Position numbers and translations under genes: made by a program
Assembly (NCBI RefSeq): GCF_000959525.1
Contig: NZ_CP009832.1
Location: 1,984,001 to 2,048,000, forward strand
Direction of reading: 5' to 3'
Length of the DNA stretch: 64,000 nt
Origin: Burkholderia multivorans ATCC BAA-247
GTDB lineage: Bacteria > Pseudomonadota > Gammaproteobacteria > Burkholderiales > Burkholderiaceae
Notes under the pieces: model-generated
What the model saw: only the letters and a program-made list of their open reading frames with translations
Told to the model about the DNA's origin: nothing
The model's database searches: none
In this document: piece after piece, positions 56,098 to 64,000 of the stretch
How positions within the stretch are numbered: the stretch's first letter is position 1
Layout of the letters: every line of letters starts with the position of its first letter

Positions 56098-57063
56098 CTA
56101 CGCGGGCAACAGCACGTCGGCCGCGTGATACGAGGAGCGCACGAGCGGGCCGGCGACCACTTCCGCGAAACCGAGCGCCAGCCCCTCGTCGCGCCATGCC
56201 GCGAACGCCTCCGGGCTCACGTAGCGCCGCACCGGCAGATGATGCGCGGACGGCGCGAGATACTGGCCGAGCGTCAGGACGTCGACACCGTGCGCGCGCA
56301 GGTCGCGCATCGTCGCGCGCACCTCGTCGTCGCCTTCGCCGAGCCCGAGCATCAATCCCGATTTCGTGACGAGCGCCGGCCGCGCGCCCTTCGCGCGCGC
56401 GAGCAGATCGAGCGAGCCGCGATAGTCGGCGCCGGGCCGCGCCGCGCGATACAGCGAGGGCACCGTCTCGATGTTGTGGTTGAACACGTCGGGCCATGCC
56501 TGCGACAGCGCGTCGAGCGCACGATCGATGCGGCCGCGGAAATCGGGCACCAGCACCTCGACGCCGATCCCCGGCACGCTCGCGCGCACCGCCGCGATGC
56601 AGGCGGCGAAATGCGCGGCGCCGCCGTCGCGCAGATCGTCGCGGTCGACCGACGTGATCACGACGTAGCGCAGCGCGAGCGCGGCGACGGCCTCCGCGAG
56701 CCGGGCGGGCTCGTCCGGATCGAGCGGCTCCGGACGGCCGTGCGCGACGTCGCAGAACGGGCAGCGGCGCGTACAGAGCCCGCCCATGATCATGAAGGTC
56801 GCCGTGCGCTGCGCAAAACATTCGCCGATGTTCGGACACATCGCTTCCTCGCATACGGAATGCAGCCGATGCGCGCGCAGCACGGCCGCCATGTCGGCGA
56901 CGGCCGCGCTCATCATCGGCCGTGCGCGCAGCCACGGCGGCTTGGGCAGCGCCGCACCGTCGGCGGGCTCGACCCGCACGGGGATGCGCGCGAGCTTGTC
57001 GCGGCTGCGCGCGCCCGGCTGGCCGAGCGCGGTGAGGCTGGGTCGTTCGAGCGCGGCAGCCAT
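56098..57063 (-). CDS. lipA: Lipoyl synthase, aco-operon copy (LipA family)
   Basis: Radical-SAM enzyme that inserts two sulfurs into octanoyl groups on lipoyl domains. The 321-residue product has the auxiliary-cluster cysteines at 71, 76 and 82 ([12 protein letters not shown]), the radical-SAM CxxxCxxC at 97, 101 and 104, and the C-terminal RSSYHA signature. It starts 2 bp after the acoC stop codon, so it is translationally linked to the acetoin dehydrogenase E2. It is probably a paralogue of a housekeeping lipA elsewhere, but only this copy is in the window. An acoS-like name would also fit. Confidence 0.92.
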
Positions 57064-57065
57064 CG

Positions 57066-58181
57066 TCAGTCTCCGAGAAACGCGACGATCAGCCGGTTCA
57101 CGTCGGCCGCCGCTTCCATCTGCACCATGTGCCCGCTGCCGGCGATCAGCTCGGTGCGCACGCCGTCCGGCAAACCCTGCGCGTGCTGCGCCGGAATCAC
57201 CTGGTCGCGCTCGCCCCAGATCACGAGCGTGCGCGGCGCGAGCGACGCAAGCCGGTCGCGGAACACGCGCCGCTGCATCGCGCCGTCGAACGCGGCGTTC
57301 GCGATCTTCTCGAGCGCGGCCTGCACGCCTTCGAGCCGCTTGTATTTGACGAGATCGTCGACGAGCTGTCGCGTGACGAGCGCGCTGTCCGCGAACAGCG
57401 CGCCGAGATGCGGCTTCAGCGTATTGCGGCTGTTGCCGGCGACGAAGCCGTCGATGTAGTCGCGGTTGATCTCGGCACCGAGGCCCGCGCTCGCGATCAG
57501 CGTCAGCGACGCGACGCGCGCCGGCGCACGCTCGGCGACCGTCATCGCGACCGCGCCGCCCATCGAATGGCCGATCAGGTGCGCACGCTCGATGTCCTTC
57601 GCGTCGAGCAGCGCCAGCACGGCGTCGGCGAGCTCGTCGAGGCTGCCGCTCTCGACCGCCTTGCCCGACTCGCCGTGACCGGGCAGATCGAGCGCCCACA
57701 CCGGCCGGTGCGCCGCCAGTTCCGCATGGTTGAACAGCCAGTTGTTCAGGTCGCCGCCGAAGCCGTGAATCAGCACGGCCGGCGTCCCGGCGCCCTCGCC
57801 GAGCTTCAGGAAGCGTACCGTGCGGCCGCCGATCTGCGCCTTCTCAGGCTGCGGGCCGGCCGCTTCGTCGGCCGCCGCGCTCGGCGTGTAGTCGCGCTGG
57901 AACGCCGCGATCGCCGCGTCGATGTCGGCATCGCTCACGTCGGCCGCGGCGACCACGCCGAGCAGCGCGCCGACCGGCAGCGTTTCGCCCTCCTGAGCGA
58001 CCTGCCGGCGCAGCGTGCCGTCGAATGCGCATTCGACGCCCGACGAAATCTTGTCGGTCTCGACGTCGAGCACCTCGTCGCCCTTCGACACGCGTTCGCC
58101 GACCGCCTTCAGCCAGCCGTTGACCTGCCCCTGCTCCATCGACAGCCCCCACTTGGGCATCGTGATCATGTGAATCGACAT
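57066..58181 (-). CDS. acoC: Acetoin dehydrogenase E2 component AcoC (lipoyl domain plus alpha/beta hydrolase)
   Basis: Dihydrolipoyl acetyltransferase of the acetoin dehydrogenase complex. The 371-residue product has an N-terminal lipoyl domain with the modified Lys44 in VETDKISSG and a short linker (about 82-125). The C-terminal part is an alpha/beta-hydrolase fold: nucleophile Ser206 in IGHSMGGA, Asp326 in GERDQVIP, His351 in GSGHMVQ. A chloramphenicol-acetyltransferase-type catalytic domain, normal in E2 proteins, is absent. This hydrolase-fused form is known in AcoC proteins. It starts 4 bp after acoB and is followed by lipA. Confidence 0.92.
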
Positions 58182-58185
58182 CGTC

Positions 58186-59190
58186 TCAGCTCCTCGTTTT
58201 CAGCACGGCCTGCGCGATTGCATCGGCAGACGGGATATACAGGTCCTCGAGCACGCCGGCGAACGGCGCGGGCGTGTGCGGCGCGGTCACGAGCTCGATC
58301 GGCGCCTGCAGCGAACGGAACGCGCGCTGCGCGACGAGCGCGGCGATGTCGGTCGCGATCGAGCAGCGCGGGTTCGCTTCGTCGACGACCACCACGCGCC
58401 CGGTGCGTGCCGCGCTTTCGAGAATCGTTTCCTCGTCGAGCGGCGACGTCGTGCGCAGGTCGATCACGTCGACCTGAATGCCGTCCTTCGCGAGCTTCGC
58501 GGCGGCGTCCATCGCGACATGCACCATCCGGCCGTAGGTGACGATCGTCGCGTCGTCGCCGTCGCGCACGACGTTCGCCTCGCCGAACGGAATGGCATAG
58601 GATTCCTCGGGCACGTCGCCTTCGCGCGTGTAGAGCAGCTTGTGCTCGAGGAAGATCACCGGATCGTTGTCGCGGATCGACTGGATCAGCAGCCCCTTCG
58701 CGTCGTACGGCGTCGACGGGCATACGACCTTCAGCCCCGGAATGTGCGTAAACAGCGACGTGAGCATCTGCGAGTGCTGCGCGGCCGCGCGCAGGCCCGC
58801 GCCGTACATCGCGCGGATCACGACCGGCGTGACGGCCTTGCCGCCGAACATGTAGCGGAATTTCGCGGCCTGGTTGAAGATCTGGTCGAAGCACACGCCC
58901 ATGAAGTCGACGAACATCAGCTCGGCGACAGGTCGCATCCCGCACGCGGCGGCGCCGACCGCCGCGCCGATGTAGCCGCCTTCGGACAGCGGCGTGTCGA
59001 GCACGCGGCCCGGAAACTTGTGGAACAGCCCCTTCGTCACGCCGAGCACGCCGCCCCATGCGTCGTCCTCGCCGGGCGCGCCCGCGCCGCCCGCATTGTC
59101 CTCGCCCATCACGATCACGCTGTCGTCGCGCGCCATCTCCTGCGCGAGCGCCTCGTTGATCGCCTGCGAATAAGTGATCTTCCTTGCCAT
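58186..59190 (-). CDS. acoB: Acetoin dehydrogenase E1 component, beta subunit AcoB
   Basis: Beta subunit of the thiamine-diphosphate E1 that cleaves acetoin to acetaldehyde and an acetyl unit. The 334-residue product has the transketolase-pyrimidine domain (about 1-180) with DDSVIVMGEDN and DTPLSEGGYIGAAVGAA, and a C-terminal transketolase domain (about 195-330, LRTTSPLDEETI). It lies 64 bp downstream of acoA and 4 bp upstream of acoC. Sequence and context agree with AcoB rather than the pyruvate or branched-chain enzyme. Confidence 0.94.
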   Translation of the reverse strand: MARKITYSQAINEALAQEMARDDSVIVMGEDNAGGAGAPGEDDAWGGVLGVTKGLFHKFPGRVLDTPLSEGGYIGAAVGAAACGMRPVAELMFVDFMGVCFDQIFNQAAKFRYMFGGKAVTPVVIRAMYGAGLRAAAQHSQMLTSLFTHIPGLKVVCPSTPYDAKGLLIQSIRDNDPVIFLEHKLLYTREGDVPEESYAIPFGEANVVRDGDDATIVTYGRMVHVAMDAAAKLAKDGIQVDVIDLRTTSPLDEETILESAARTGRVVVVDEANPRCSIATDIAALVAQRAFRSLQAPIELVTAPHTPAPFAGVLEDLYIPSADAIAQAVLKTRS

Positions 59191-59254
59191 GTCTGTCTCC
59201 TGGAATGTTCGGTTCGCCGTGTCGGCCGTTGCATTGCGCGCGGTTCGGCCGCGC

Positions 59255-60238
59255 TCACGGATACGACACGTAGACGTCGGTCAGCAGGTCGGCCGCATCC
59301 GGCAGCGGCGCGGCCTTCGCTTCCGCCACCGCGTCGTCGATCAGCGCCTTCACCTGCGCGTCGACTGCACGCAGCTCGTCCGTCGTCAGCACTTCGGCGC
59401 GCACGACGCGCGATTCGAAATGCTTCAGGCAGTCCTTCTCGTCGCGCAGCTTCTGTACTTCGCCAGGCGCGCGATAGGTCTGTGCGTCGCCTTCGAAGTG
59501 GCCGAAGTAGCGCGAGAACTTCACCTCGACGAGCGTCGGGCCGCCGCCGTTGCGCGCGCGCTCGACGGCTTCGCCGAGCGCCTCGTGCACGGCAAAGAAG
59601 TCGAAGCCGTCGACGATCACGCCCGGCATGCCGAAGCCGTTCGCGCGATCGGCGATGTTGTCGGTCGCGACCGACCAGCTCGACGAGGTCGCTTCCGCGT
59701 AGCCGTTGTTCTCGGCGACGAAGATCGCGGGCAGCCGCCACACCGACGCGAGGTTCATCGATTCGAAGATCACGCCCTGGTTCGATGCGCCGTCGCCGAA
59801 GAAGCAGACGCCGACGCCGCCCGTCTTCTTCTGCTTGGCCGCGAGCGCCGCGCCGCAAACGAGCGGGCCGCCCGCCCCGACGATCCCGTTGGCGCCGAGC
59901 ATCCCCATCGACAGGTCGGCGATGTGCATCGAGCCGCCCTTGCCGTGACAGACGCCGGTCTTCTTCCCGTAGATTTCGGCCATCATCCCGCGCACGTCGA
60001 CGCCCTTCGCGATGCAGTGGCCGTGGCCGCGGTGCGTCGTCGCGACGTAGTCGGCGACGCCGAGGTGCAGCATCGTGCCGACCGCGGACGCCTCCTCGCC
60101 CGCATACAGGTGAACGAAGCCGGGAATCTCGCCGGTCGCGAACTCGACGTGCAGGCGCTCCTCGAATTCGCGAATCGTGCGCATCAGCCGGTATGCCTCC
60201 AGCAGCGTGTCTCTGCTGAGCTGTGTCGAAACGGACAT
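59255..60238 (-). CDS. acoA: Acetoin dehydrogenase E1 component, alpha subunit AcoA
   Basis: Alpha subunit of the thiamine-diphosphate E1. The 327-residue product carries the TPP-binding motif GDGASNQGVIFESMN with the conserved Gly-Asp-Gly and Asn, and the E1-alpha core around GKGGSMHIADLSMGMLGANG, residues about 120-140. A GGAG ribosome binding site precedes the ATG at 60238. It lies 97 bp downstream of the short-chain dehydrogenase gene and is the first of the three contiguous complex genes acoA-acoB-acoC. The E3 (dihydrolipoyl dehydrogenase) is not in the window. Confidence 0.94.
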   Translation of the reverse strand: MSVSTQLSRDTLLEAYRLMRTIREFEERLHVEFATGEIPGFVHLYAGEEASAVGTMLHLGVADYVATTHRGHGHCIAKGVDVRGMMAEIYGKKTGVCHGKGGSMHIADLSMGMLGANGIVGAGGPLVCGAALAAKQKKTGGVGVCFFGDGASNQGVIFESMNLASVWRLPAIFVAENNGYAEATSSSWSVATDNIADRANGFGMPGVIVDGFDFFAVHEALGEAVERARNGGGPTLVEVKFSRYFGHFEGDAQTYRAPGEVQKLRDEKDCLKHFESRVVRAEVLTTDELRAVDAQVKALIDDAVAEAKAAPLPDAADLLTDVYVSYP

Positions 60239-60335
60239 GTGTGTCTCCTTGGGTTGGTCTGACTGCGAATGCCGCCGCGGCGCTGCCGCGGCAACGGATT
60301 GCGCGACTGCGGCCCGCGCGTGCCGGTTGCAGCCG

Positions 60336-61112
60336 TCAGTGAAACGTGAAGCCGCCGTCGACGTTCACGGCCTGCCCGGTCACGTTGTCCATCGTCGCGA
60401 AAAACAGCGCGAGGCGGCCCATGTCTTCGGGCGTCTGCGCGCGGCCTTGCGGAATCAGCGTGAGCTGATGCCGCTGCCACGATTCCTCGACCGACTCGCC
60501 GTCCGCCTTCCATTCGTCGGAAAGCCGGTCCCACATGTAGGTGCGCACGATGCCCGGGCAGATCGCGTTGACGGTGATGCCGTCGCGCGCGACTTCCTTC
60601 GCGAGCGCGTTCGTGAAGCCGACGACCGCGAACTTCGAGGCGCTGTAGTGCGCGAGATTCGGAAAGCCTTCCTTGCCGGCAATCGACGCGACGTTGACGA
60701 TCCGGCCGCTGCGTTGCGTCTTCAGATGCGGCAGCGCCGCGCGGCAGCCGAGAAACGTGCCCTTCGCGTTCACGTCCATCACGAAATCCCAGTCGCGCTC
60801 GCTCAGCTGGTCGACCGGGTGGATGCTGATCACGCCCGCGCAGTTGACGAGGATGTCGAGCCGGCCGAGTTCGGCAAGCGCCTGCGCGACCATCGCGTCG
60901 ACCTGCGCGGACTGCGTGACGTCGACCTTCGCGACCGCCGCACGGCGGCCGAGCGCACGCACTTCGCGCGCCGTGGAATCGAGCGCGTCGTCGAGCAGAT
61001 CGGCGAGCAGAATGTCGGCGCCCGCGCCGGCGAGCGTCAGCGCGATCCCGCGGCCGATGCCGCGCGCGCCGCCGGTGACGATCGCGACCTGTCCTTCGAG
61101 AGCGGTTGTCAT
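60336..61112 (-). CDS. Short-chain dehydrogenase of the aco operon (putative acetoin/diacetyl/2,3-butanediol reductase)
   Basis: NAD(P)-dependent oxidoreductase of 258 residues. The nucleotide-binding motif TGGARGIGRG is at about residue 13, NCAG near 90, catalytic Ser in NVASIAG and YxxxK in HYSASKFAVVG. Its place between acoX and acoA suggests it oxidises 2,3-butanediol to acetoin or reduces diacetyl to acetoin, feeding the dehydrogenase. The exact substrate is inferred from context only. The ATG at 61110-61112 has GAGGAGA upstream. It starts 50 bp after the acoX stop codon. Confidence 0.88.
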   Translation of the reverse strand: MTTALEGQVAIVTGGARGIGRGIALTLAGAGADILLADLLDDALDSTAREVRALGRRAAVAKVDVTQSAQVDAMVAQALAELGRLDILVNCAGVISIHPVDQLSERDWDFVMDVNAKGTFLGCRAALPHLKTQRSGRIVNVASIAGKEGFPNLAHYSASKFAVVGFTNALAKEVARDGITVNAICPGIVRTYMWDRLSDEWKADGESVEESWQRHQLTLIPQGRAQTPEDMGRLALFFATMDNVTGQAVNVDGGFTFH

Positions 61113-61162: not shown

Positions 61163-62236
61163 TCAGTTGCGCCACGCGGAAACGTCGCGCAGCAACTGAC
61201 GCGACGCCGCGTAGCGCAGCGTGCGGCCGACGTCGACGGTGAGCGGGCCGCGCCAGTCGAGCGCGATCTCGTAGCGGTCGCCGCGCGCGACTTCGATCTC
61301 GCGTTCGCCGTCGAACGCGAGCGTGCCGTGCTCGAATGGAATCGGCTGCCACGCGTCCGGCTCGAGCCGTTCGCAGCTGCGCATCACGACGCGGTCGACG
61401 CGGCCCGGCGCGATCGGTGCGACGAGCGGCGTGCCGGCCGTCTTTCCTTCGCCGGCGAAACGCATCGCGAGCCCGTGCGGCGCGCTGCGCTCGAGCGGCG
61501 CCCACGCGCCGCCGAGCGCCGACAGCCCGATGCCGTCGGGCTCCGCGAAGGTCAGATACAGCGTGTCGATGTCGTCGGGCCCCGAGATCGCGCGTGCGCC
61601 GACGAAGCGCTGCCGTGCGGCGCAGACGTCGACGAGCGCGATCTCCTCGCGCCCCGGCTGCGGGCCGGCCGCGCAGCGCACGACGAGCCGCTTGTTGCGC
61701 GCGAACACGACGTCGGGCGGCACCGCGCCAGTGGCGGCGAGACCGGCCGCGACGCCGGCGACGGTCGCCTCGCGCTGCTCGGGAAACGCGTTGTTGGTGC
61801 CGGTCGACAGCGCGACGAGCGGTGTCGTGCCGCAATGGGCCGCGACCGCACGATGCGTGCCGTCGCCGCCGAGCACGACGATCAGCGCAACTTCGTGGCG
61901 ATGCAGATAGGCGGCGCCCGCATGCGTGTCGGCGACCGTATCGGTGATCGGCAGGTCGACGAATTGGACGTCCGGCCAGCGCGCGTCGCCGCCCACCGCA
62001 CGATGCGTATCGAGTGCGCGCAGCAGCAGCGTCGCGATGCCGGTGCGGTCGCGCAGCGTCAGCACGCGCTCGACGCCCATCGCGCCGAGGCCGGCCAGCA
62101 GGCGCACGATCATGTTCGCCTTCTCGGCGGTCGGAAACACCGATGCATGCGTGGTGAGGCGGCGAATGTCGCGCCCCGAGGCGGGGTTCGCGATCACGCC
62201 GACGGTAACGGGCGTCGTCACGGGCTTTGTCTCCAT
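61163..62236 (-). CDS. acoX: AcoX, ATP-NAD kinase-like protein
   Basis: Protein of the NAD kinase/diacylglycerol kinase fold, found in acetoin operons as AcoX with unproven function. The 357-residue product has VGVIANPASGRDIRRL at the N terminus and the GGDGT nucleotide-binding motif (VLGGDGTHRA) near residue 125. ALSTGTNNAFPE follows. It is the first gene after the sigma-54 promoter, whose conserved bases lie 119-134 bp upstream of its start. The start is ATG at 62236. Its order, acoX before acoA, matches the Ralstonia eutropha cluster except for the inserted dehydrogenase. Confidence 0.92.
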   Translation of the reverse strand: METKPVTTPVTVGVIANPASGRDIRRLTTHASVFPTAEKANMIVRLLAGLGAMGVERVLTLRDRTGIATLLLRALDTHRAVGGDARWPDVQFVDLPITDTVADTHAGAAYLHRHEVALIVVLGGDGTHRAVAAHCGTTPLVALSTGTNNAFPEQREATVAGVAAGLAATGAVPPDVVFARNKRLVVRCAAGPQPGREEIALVDVCAARQRFVGARAISGPDDIDTLYLTFAEPDGIGLSALGGAWAPLERSAPHGLAMRFAGEGKTAGTPLVAPIAPGRVDRVVMRSCERLEPDAWQPIPFEHGTLAFDGEREIEVARGDRYEIALDWRGPLTVDVGRTLRYAASRQLLRDVSAWRN

Positions 62237-62354: not shown

Positions 62355-62370
62355 TGCAAGCGATGTGCCA
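62355..62370 (-). promoter_or_regulatory. Sigma-54 (RpoN) -24/-12 promoter of the aco operon
   Basis: On the minus strand the sequence TGGCACATCGCTTGCA matches the TGGCAC-N5-TTGCA consensus with the exact 5-nt gap and the invariant GG and GC. It points to acoX, 119 nt from the start codon. AcoR, encoded divergently, is a sigma-54-dependent activator. Confidence 0.9.
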
Positions 62371-62476
62371 GCATGCGCGCGATCGGCGCGGCACCCGCGC
62401 CGGCGCTGGCGCGGCGGCCGCGCGCGGCATGCGGATGCAACGCCGCGACCGCGCGTCGCGGCGCCGAGCGGCGCCG

Positions 62477-62496
62477 GCGTCTCACGCGCGCGCGAC
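62477..62496. repeat. Weak GCGTC/GACGC dyad in the aco regulatory region
   Basis: Arms of 5 bp around a 10-nt centre contain one GTCTCAC half-site identical to an arm of the palindrome at 62649. It may be an additional weak activator site or chance in GC-rich sequence. Confidence 0.35.
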
Positions 62497-62612
62497 GCTG
62501 TGCGCCTCGTCAGCGCACGCGCCGCGACGCCGGGCATCGCGCGCAAACCCGCGTGCGGCGCGGCTGTGCGCCGCATTACGCCGGCGCGCCGCCGGCCGAA
62601 CGACGCGGCGAT

Positions 62613-62638
62613 GCGCGTCTCAATCGCGCGAGACGCGC
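62613..62638. repeat. Inverted repeat 1, candidate AcoR binding site
   Basis: Perfect 9-bp arms GCGCGTCTC and GAGACGCGC are separated by 8 nt. The GTCTC/GAGAC core is shared with the repeat at 62649. Centre-to-centre distance to that repeat is 32 bp, close to three helical turns. Confidence 0.7.
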
Positions 62639-62648
62639 GGCGGCGGCC

Positions 62649-62666
62649 GTGAGACGAATGTCTCAC
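62649..62666. repeat. Inverted repeat 2, candidate AcoR binding site
   Basis: Perfect 7-bp arms GTGAGAC and GTCTCAC are separated by GAAT. It lies 92 bp before the acoR start and about 290 bp upstream of the sigma-54 promoter, a normal distance for enhancer-like activator sites. Confidence 0.75.
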
Positions 62667-62757
62667 GCGGCTCGCGTGCTGCGGCGCAATGTGATCCGCC
62701 GAAACGGATGTGCTACAAGAGCATCGAATTCCCCGTCGTACGGAACCGGAGCCGACC

Positions 62758-64000
62758 ATGCCTTACGTCGTTCCCCAGGCCCAGCATGCGGACCGCGTGC
62801 TCGGTGCGCTCGCCGGCCGTTTGCCGCCGCCGGCCGATTCGACGCGCCTCGTTTCGTCATGGCAGCGCTCGCTCGAGCGCTACCGGCTCGACCCCGCGTC
62901 GTCGATCGGCCCGCGCGTGCTGACCGCGGCCGAGCTGCGCGAGGTGCGCGACAAGGAAGAAGCGTTTTTGCGCGCGTCGGGCCAGTGCCTGACGCGGCTG
63001 CACGAGATGATCCGCGTCGCCGATTACTGCGTGATGCTGACCGACGCGCACGGCGTGACGATCGACTATCGGATCGATCGCGAGCGTCGCAACGACTTCC
63101 GCCATGCGGGGCTGCACATCGGCTCGTGCTGGTCGGAGAGCGAGGAAGGCACGTGCGGCGTCGCGAGCGTGCTGACCGATCTCGCGCCGATCACCGTGCA
63201 CAAGACCGACCATTTTCGCGCCGCGTTCACGACGCTCACCTGCAGCGCGGCGCCGATCTTTTCGCCGGCCGGCGAGCTGATCGGCGTGCTCGACGCGTCG
63301 GCCGTGCAGTCGCCCGACAATCGCGACAGCCAGCGTCTCGTCTATCAGCTCGTGCGGCAGAGCGCGGCGCTGATCGAGGACGGCTATTTCGTGCACAGCA
63401 CGGCGCAGCACTGGATCCTGTTCGGGCATCCTAATCGTCACTACGTCGAGGCGCAGCCCGAATGGCTGATCGCGTTCGACGAATGTGGCAACATCGTCGC
63501 CGCGAACCGGCGCGCGCGCGACGCGTTGCCGGAGCTGCGCGAGCCGCGCCACATCGACGAGATTTTCGACGTGACCGACATGCCGCTGCGCGACGCCGCG
63601 CGGCTCGACGCGATCGTCGCGCTGCGGCTGCGCGCGACCGGTGCGACGCTGCATGCGCGGCTGCGCGCGCCGTTGCGCCGCGCGGGACGCGATGCCGGCA
63701 GCGCATCGCGCCGGCCGGGCGCGACCGAGCGCCACGTAGGCGCGCTGACGCCGTTCCTGCACAGCAGCGACGCGCGCGTCGCGCAGCAGGCCGAACTCGC
63801 GCTGCGCGTCGCGAGCAAGCGGCTGCCGATTCTCGTGCTCGGCGAAACCGGCGCGGGCAAGGAAGTGTTCGCTCGGGCGATCCACGATGCCGGCGCGCGA
63901 CGCACGCGGCCGTTCGTCGCCGTCAATTGCGGCGCGCTGCCCGAAGCGCTGATCGAGAGCGAACTGTTCGGCTACGCAGCGGGCGCGTTCACGGGCGCAC
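62758..64000 (+). CDS. acoR: Sigma-54-dependent activator AcoR (5' part, cut by window edge)
   Basis: Enhancer-binding protein that senses acetoin or a related inducer and drives RpoN transcription of the aco operon. 414 codons are present and the rest lies beyond the right edge. The N-terminal half contains a GAF-like sensory domain (about 60-200, [18 protein letters not shown] and [11 protein letters not shown]). The AAA+ domain begins at about 345 with Walker A GETGAGKE. The last complete residues are GAFTGA, the sigma-54 contact loop, in [13 protein letters not shown]. The C-terminal Fis-type DNA-binding domain is not in view. It is divergent from acoX. Confidence 0.95.

Follow-up and report, generated by a model that had tools for sequence, protein, structure and literature searches.

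The divergent acoX and acoR genes of Burkholderia multivorans ATCC BAA-247 raise the question of how the DNA between an acetoin catabolic operon and the gene of its activator serves two promoters, and which of the repeats located there are recognized by AcoR. The original prediction, made from the letters of the DNA alone, combined a sigma-54 promoter and two paired palindromes into a complete enhancer architecture. Here, we followed up this proposal in a window of 64,000 nucleotides (contig NZ_CP009832.1, positions 1,984,001 to 2,048,000), which is the whole stretch of DNA analysed and to which all coordinates refer, and in the corresponding regions of related genomes.

The aco operon and its promoters

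The locus comprises the following features:

57066..61112, minus strand: remaining operon, with an SDR dehydrogenase, acoA-like and acoB-like E1 subunits and an acoC-like lipoyl plus alpha/beta hydrolase protein (E2)
61163..62236, minus strand: acoX, first gene of the operon, NAD_kinase-like, named from homology and context
62355..62370, minus strand: sigma-54 -24/-12 element toward acoX, reading TGGCACATCGCTTGCA at 62370-62355
62477..62484, minus strand: distal AcoR-type half-site, GCGTCTCA, or TGAGACGC as read on the minus strand; located 109 bp upstream of the -24 element
62615..62636: palindrome 1, GCGTCTC-N8-GAGACGC, two half-sites
62649..62666: palindrome 2, GTGAGAC-N4-GTCTCAC, two half-sites, predicted core AcoR operator
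62676..62696, plus strand: conserved block between palindrome 2 and the acoR -10, GTGCTGCGGCGCAATGTGATC, seen in the alignment
62711..62719, plus strand: sigma-70-type extended -10 of acoR, TGCTACAAG, conserved in the alignment
62758..64000, continuing past the window, plus strand: acoR, 638 aa with GAF, sigma-54 AAA+ with GAFTGA, and Fis-type HTH

The earlier assignment of the divergent gene to the sigma-54 activators with a GAFTGA motif was borne out, as the frame from 62758 contains a GAF and a sigma-54 activation domain, and the entire gene shows the combination of GAF, sigma-54 AAA+ with GAFTGA and Fis HTH that defines an AcoR-type enhancer-binding protein. The GAFTGA motif is found at the end of the window and HTH_8 beyond it, where the gene was read from the whole genome. 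Operon content and literature point to acetoin as the likely AcoR ligand. The acoC-like gene is followed on the minus strand by a radical-SAM gene (56098-57042), reminiscent of the lipoyl-synthase-like gene found in certain aco operons. In Cupriavidus necator H16 (Alcaligenes eutrophus), an acoXABC operon with a sigma-54-type promoter before acoX is activated by AcoR, and the present locus is similar in its acoX-acoABC operon, sigma-54-type promoter and AcoR activator. The AcoR-regulated set given for Pseudomonas putida in PMC10943186, acoXABC-bdhA, has acoX and acoABC in common with it and includes a butanediol dehydrogenase.

The near-perfect -24/-12 element that had been proposed to face acoX on the minus strand exists at exactly these coordinates. 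It carries GG at -24 and GC at -12 in the fixed spacing of the TGGCAC-N5-TTGCW type, TGGCACATCGCTTGCA scores 11 of 12 consensus positions, and when the intergenic region was shuffled 2000 times with its dinucleotides preserved, TGGCAC-N5-TTGCW never appeared on either strand. Its prediction as the sigma-54 promoter of acoX is supported by comparison, as TGG-N8-TTGC faces acoX in 111/111 orthologous acoR-acoX regions (set described below), where the element scores 12, the maximum, in 35, 11 in 54 and 10 in 22 regions. Judged from the element, the acoX transcript would be expected to start at approximately 62344. This genome gives two PF04552 (sigma-54) matches. On the opposite side, the -10 of acoR itself occupies 62714-62719 and reads toward acoR, and the block at 62676-62696 contains strongly conserved TGC repeats with TGTGATC at its end.

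Between both promoters, five GTCTC/GAGAC half-sites are found, i.e. two in each palindrome and one at 62477-62484. The two palindromes with the shared core are real, had been placed correctly, and have their centres 32 bp apart. Inverted repeats with arms of at least 7 were listed 18 times in the intergenic region, some of them overlapping, compared to an average of 6.9 over 500 shuffled versions; in 380 of these versions, two repeats with a common 5-mer core occurred. In these shuffles the palindromes are not distinguishable from G+C-rich background; hence, the argument from one sequence fails, we rejected it, and conservation has to decide. Allowing for up to 2 mismatches, a genome-wide scan placed GTGAGAC-N4-GTCTCAC at 2 sites, of which only palindrome 2 is perfect, and the reversed control pattern gave 7 matches per strand. 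As to further members of an AcoR regulon, the search returned no second perfect palindrome and one site with 2 mismatches at 2768-2785 of the window.

Conservation of the half-sites in orthologous regions

The search for acoX in 299 genomes of the family resulted in 125 genomes with a match, 58 of them at 65% identity or more and all of these with a divergent acoR. A second search in 144 genomes centred on genome G219 gave 75 matches in the genus, of which 20 were already in the set; from the remaining 55, 53 could be used. The comparison set consisted of 111 divergent acoR-acoX regions, 34 from the own genus and 77 others. Dropped were duplicate loci (L105, L119, L126), L102 from the same genome as L037, L159 with stops in acoX and an incomplete acoR match, and L160 at a contig end.

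Against a diverged background, the core GAGAC-N4-GTCTC of palindrome 2 was retained in all 111 regions, so that every orthologous locus keeps this dyad between the gene of the activator and the promoter of its target, and the longer form TGAGAC-N4-GTCTCA was found in 107 of them (33/34 in the own genus, 74/77 in the others). In an unbiased count between the -24 element and acoR, TGAGAC/GTCTCA was the top 6-mer in both groups, with 297 copies versus 12.2 expected in the 77 non-genus regions and 135 versus 3.6 in the 34 own-genus regions.

Palindrome 1 behaves differently. GTCTC-N8-GAGAC is present in 30/34 own-genus regions, and the start of its half-site precedes the GAGAC of palindrome 2 by 34 bp in 27 of the 34 regions of the genus, by 33 bp in 5 and by 24 bp in 2. 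Among the other 77 regions it occurs once, and the notion of two palindromes 32 bp apart as a conserved enhancer unit had to be rejected outside the genus. Two distant relatives of acoX and one of acoR are also preceded by the same arrangement. Aligning the acoX-acoR regions, as the original prediction had suggested, thus had a divided outcome: palindrome 2 stood in 111/111 regions, while palindrome 1 with its 32-bp spacing did so in 1/77 non-genus regions. We propose that palindrome 1 is a lineage-specific extra pair of sites.

The complete enhancer architecture also has to be revised at its other end, where a third half-site nearer to the promoter (62477-62484) had been overlooked. A distal GTCTC that precedes the -24 element by 95-130 bp was detected in 94/111 regions (34/34 in the own genus, at 109 or 110 bp, and 60/77 in the others); GAGAC, i.e. 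the opposite orientation, was found in the same interval in 7/111. The distal half-site is absent in 17 of the 111 regions, all of them among the 77 non-genus regions, and each of these 17 kept palindrome 2 and the promoter.

Placement of palindrome 2 and AcoR relatives without the AAA+ domain

The position of palindrome 2 differs markedly in its relation to the two promoters. Its distance to the acoR -10 (TG-N-TA-M-AA) is 55.5-58.5 bp in 111/111 regions and 56.5 bp in 106 of them, whereas the distance to the -24 element of the sigma-54 promoter ranges from 219.5 to 293.5 bp across the same 111 regions. This raises the possibility of a division of labour, in which palindrome 2 would be used only for autoregulation of acoR and the acoX enhancer would combine the distal half-site, at approximately -135 relative to the predicted acoX start, with palindrome 1 or further half-sites. 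Besides the fixed placement, this reading gains from the AcoR relatives described below, which keep the module of palindrome and promoter, in 13 of 14 cases with no sigma-54-like element within 450 bp upstream. It has to face the 17 regions mentioned above that lack the distal half-site but still hold palindrome 2 and the promoter, and also the changes in the spacing of palindrome 2 and the -24 element, most of which either do not exceed 2 bp or come close to one turn of the helix. Altogether, we regard a strict division of labour as rather unlikely.

These distance changes were mapped on the acoR tree. For palindrome 2 to the -24 element, 48 changes were inferred, of which 27 were of 2 bp or less, 5 of 3-8 bp, 11 of 9-12 bp, 2 of 13-18 bp and 3 larger. 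In the same classes, the control distance from palindrome 2 to the acoR start gave 21, 10, 6, 2 and 6 of 45 changes, and that from the -24 element to the acoX start 17, 17, 12, 6 and 25 of 77. Helical phasing was evaluated by Fisher's test versus the two control distances (p = 0.055) and by a crude simulation without L152 (p = 0.005), both on sequences that are related to each other. Hence, the changes are only suggestive of helical phasing of palindrome 2 with the promoter.

Further evidence comes from AcoR relatives without the AAA+ domain. They are 380-394 aa long and consist of GAF and Fis HTH (Pfam run on two) with the helix SRATLYRR as in AcoR. We collected 14 such short forms, 13 from the family and one from another family in an order-level search (L098, L181 and L190-L201; the same genes are also contained in L089, L090, L092-L094 and L097); they are found in some Paraburkholderia-type and other genomes. 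When the 299 family genomes were searched for AcoR forms, 71 had a match. In 58 of these it was the divergent acoR, whose open frame reached at least 658 aa in 56 genomes and 456 and 496 aa in the other two; 12 genomes carried the short form, with 13 genes in total, and one had a short fragment containing a stop. Among the matches scored in these 299 genomes, none combined both forms in one genome. All 14 short-form genes directly precede relatives of a flavin-monooxygenase-like gene (Pfam for two).

The palindrome stands before each of the 14 short-form genes; it is exact in 8, and the other 6 match it at 10-11 of 12 positions. Its distance from the -10 is 55.5 bp in 13 cases and 56.5 bp in one. 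In four related short forms, both arms have changed in concert, giving TGAGAA-N4-TTCTCA, and two others, L195 and L197, show asymmetric arm changes. A block resembling 62676-62696 also precedes these genes, weakly so in L181. Within 450 bp upstream, a sigma-54-like element was found before none of 13 of the 14 short forms, and the remaining one has one weak match. As the tight spacing is the same in the AAA+-less relatives and at the divergent acoR, palindrome 2 and the acoR -10 appear to form one module. The rigid placement relative to the -10 and the recurrence before genes mostly lacking a sigma-54-like element indicate that palindrome 2 is probably an operator of acoR as well. Hence, AcoR probably uses palindrome 2 twice, as an operator at the promoter of acoR itself and, from a distance, as an enhancer of acoX; the position of palindrome 2 would imply autoregulation of acoR. 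Whether the role at the sigma-70 promoter of acoR was able to outlive the sigma-54 one, so that an enhancer-binding protein would have kept its operator while becoming an ordinary regulator of sigma-70 promoters, we consider evenly balanced.

Predicted recognition by AcoR and a proposed two-way switch

For the recognition sequence itself, published AcoR sites provide a direct comparison. The B. thuringiensis AcoR site (Peng et al., 2020, as quoted in PMC12648084) has 30 bases and contains GAGAC-AGAT-GTCTC, and the B. subtilis AcoR UAS (Ali et al., 2001, quoted in the same source) ends in TGAGAC; an AcoR site is also described as a palindromic operator of approximately 30 bp (PMC10018347). Palindrome 2 shares the core of the quoted B. 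thuringiensis site, GAGAC-N4-GTCTC followed by A, so the recognition sequence is already known and we rejected the idea of an undescribed motif. The outer GACAAAA/TTTTGTC pair of the quoted Bacillus site was not seen here. Unlike the Bacillus system as quoted there, the Burkholderia locus has a divergent acoR, a separate half-site near the promoter and a palindrome 2 tied to the acoR -10. A similar comparative approach inferred upstream motifs of sigma-54 activators including AcoR in Clostridiales (PMC6615313), i.e. in another phylum. Taken together, conservation, the AAA+-less relatives and the core of the Bacillus site support the earlier claim that the GTCTC/GAGAC core is the predicted AcoR recognition sequence.

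In the loci examined, the recognition palindrome tracks the HTH type. An acoX type with 40-46% identity is present in 67 genomes, of which 12 loci (L061-L072) were examined; these have co-oriented acoR and acoX, the helix SRMTLYRR and the palindrome GTGACA-N2-TGTCAC, complete in 11/12, at 82-115 bp before the -24 element. Furthermore, an order-level search in 300 genomes gave 24 more distant full-length AcoR relatives. One of them, L166, has clustered TGAGACGC half-sites upstream and a sigma-54-like element facing the opposite way; four TGAGACGC-type half-sites lie at approximately 1271-1325, between the AcoR relative and a divergent Rieske-domain ORF. One search of that genome, performed without positive control, did not find acoA. 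In L163 and L182, there is little DNA upstream of the AcoR relative. Among seven distant acoX relatives (L250-L256), two have GTCTCA-N6-TGAGAC and another two one GTCTCA at -220 to -263. All four adjoin a divergent AcoR relative of approximately 40% identity, and their best sigma-54-like elements reach only 9/12.

Alternatively, a different regulator might recognize the half-sites, and AcoR would then bind at another place. The distribution of the exact palindrome bears on this from both sides. It was detected in 82/299 family genomes (reversed control 18/299), and in 62 of these 82 it is located at the divergent acoR-acoX (56 genomes, 33 of the own genus and 23 others) or at an AAA+-less AcoR relative (6 genomes). 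The other 20 genomes, including three of the own genus, carry it only where no AcoR-type gene matched, a number close to the background of 18/299. Twenty further places with the exact palindrome were inspected in the family; 7 of them head AAA+-less AcoR genes; around the other 13, the stretch inspected contained no AcoR-like gene, and in two of these cases it reached a contig end. In the own genus, the exact palindrome occurs once in 36/41 genomes (reversed control 0/41), and in 33 of the 34 genomes with an orthologous acoX this single copy is the palindrome 2 site; it is found elsewhere in 3 of the 7 genomes without acoX (L082:3087, L083:3727, L084:3696, with no AcoR-like gene in the stretch). 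Copies away from AcoR-type genes and the conserved block at 62676-62696, which shows that further factors may act here, speak for another regulator; the 62 genomes with the palindrome at AcoR-type loci, the common core with the Bacillus site quoted in PMC12648084 and the half-sites that accompany acoR relatives from beyond the family (L166, L250, L252) make it very improbable. An origin of the palindromes as hairpins that arise by chance in G+C-rich DNA, as similar repeats in shuffled versions might suggest, is hardly credible and already contradicted for palindrome 2 by its retention in every region against a diverged background; for palindrome 1, the absence from 76/77 non-genus regions does agree with a lineage-specific or chance origin.

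Accordingly, comparison gives good support for both the sigma-54 promoter and the predicted AcoR operator. We consider it highly probable that the acoX-acoR region acts as a two-way switch, in which AcoR at the half-sites loops to sigma-54 polymerase for acoX and palindrome 2 also controls acoR. AcoR would bind the GTCTC/GAGAC half-sites and sense acetoin via its GAF region; the bound activator would contact sigma-54 polymerase through looping, and its GAFTGA ATPase would open the acoX promoter. Palindrome 2, approximately 56 bp upstream of the acoR -10, would let AcoR control its own sigma-70 promoter. The conserved sigma-54 promoter and a repeat matching the published Bacillus AcoR site place this region among known types of gene switches.

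The core of the AcoR operator known from Bacillus, a member of another phylum, is thus kept in Burkholderia and Paraburkholderia. Our analysis corrects which of the repeats matter, and it predicts that AcoR controls its own gene. Moreover, the AAA+-less relative would offer a natural comparison for the rewiring of a sigma-54 activator with its operator kept.
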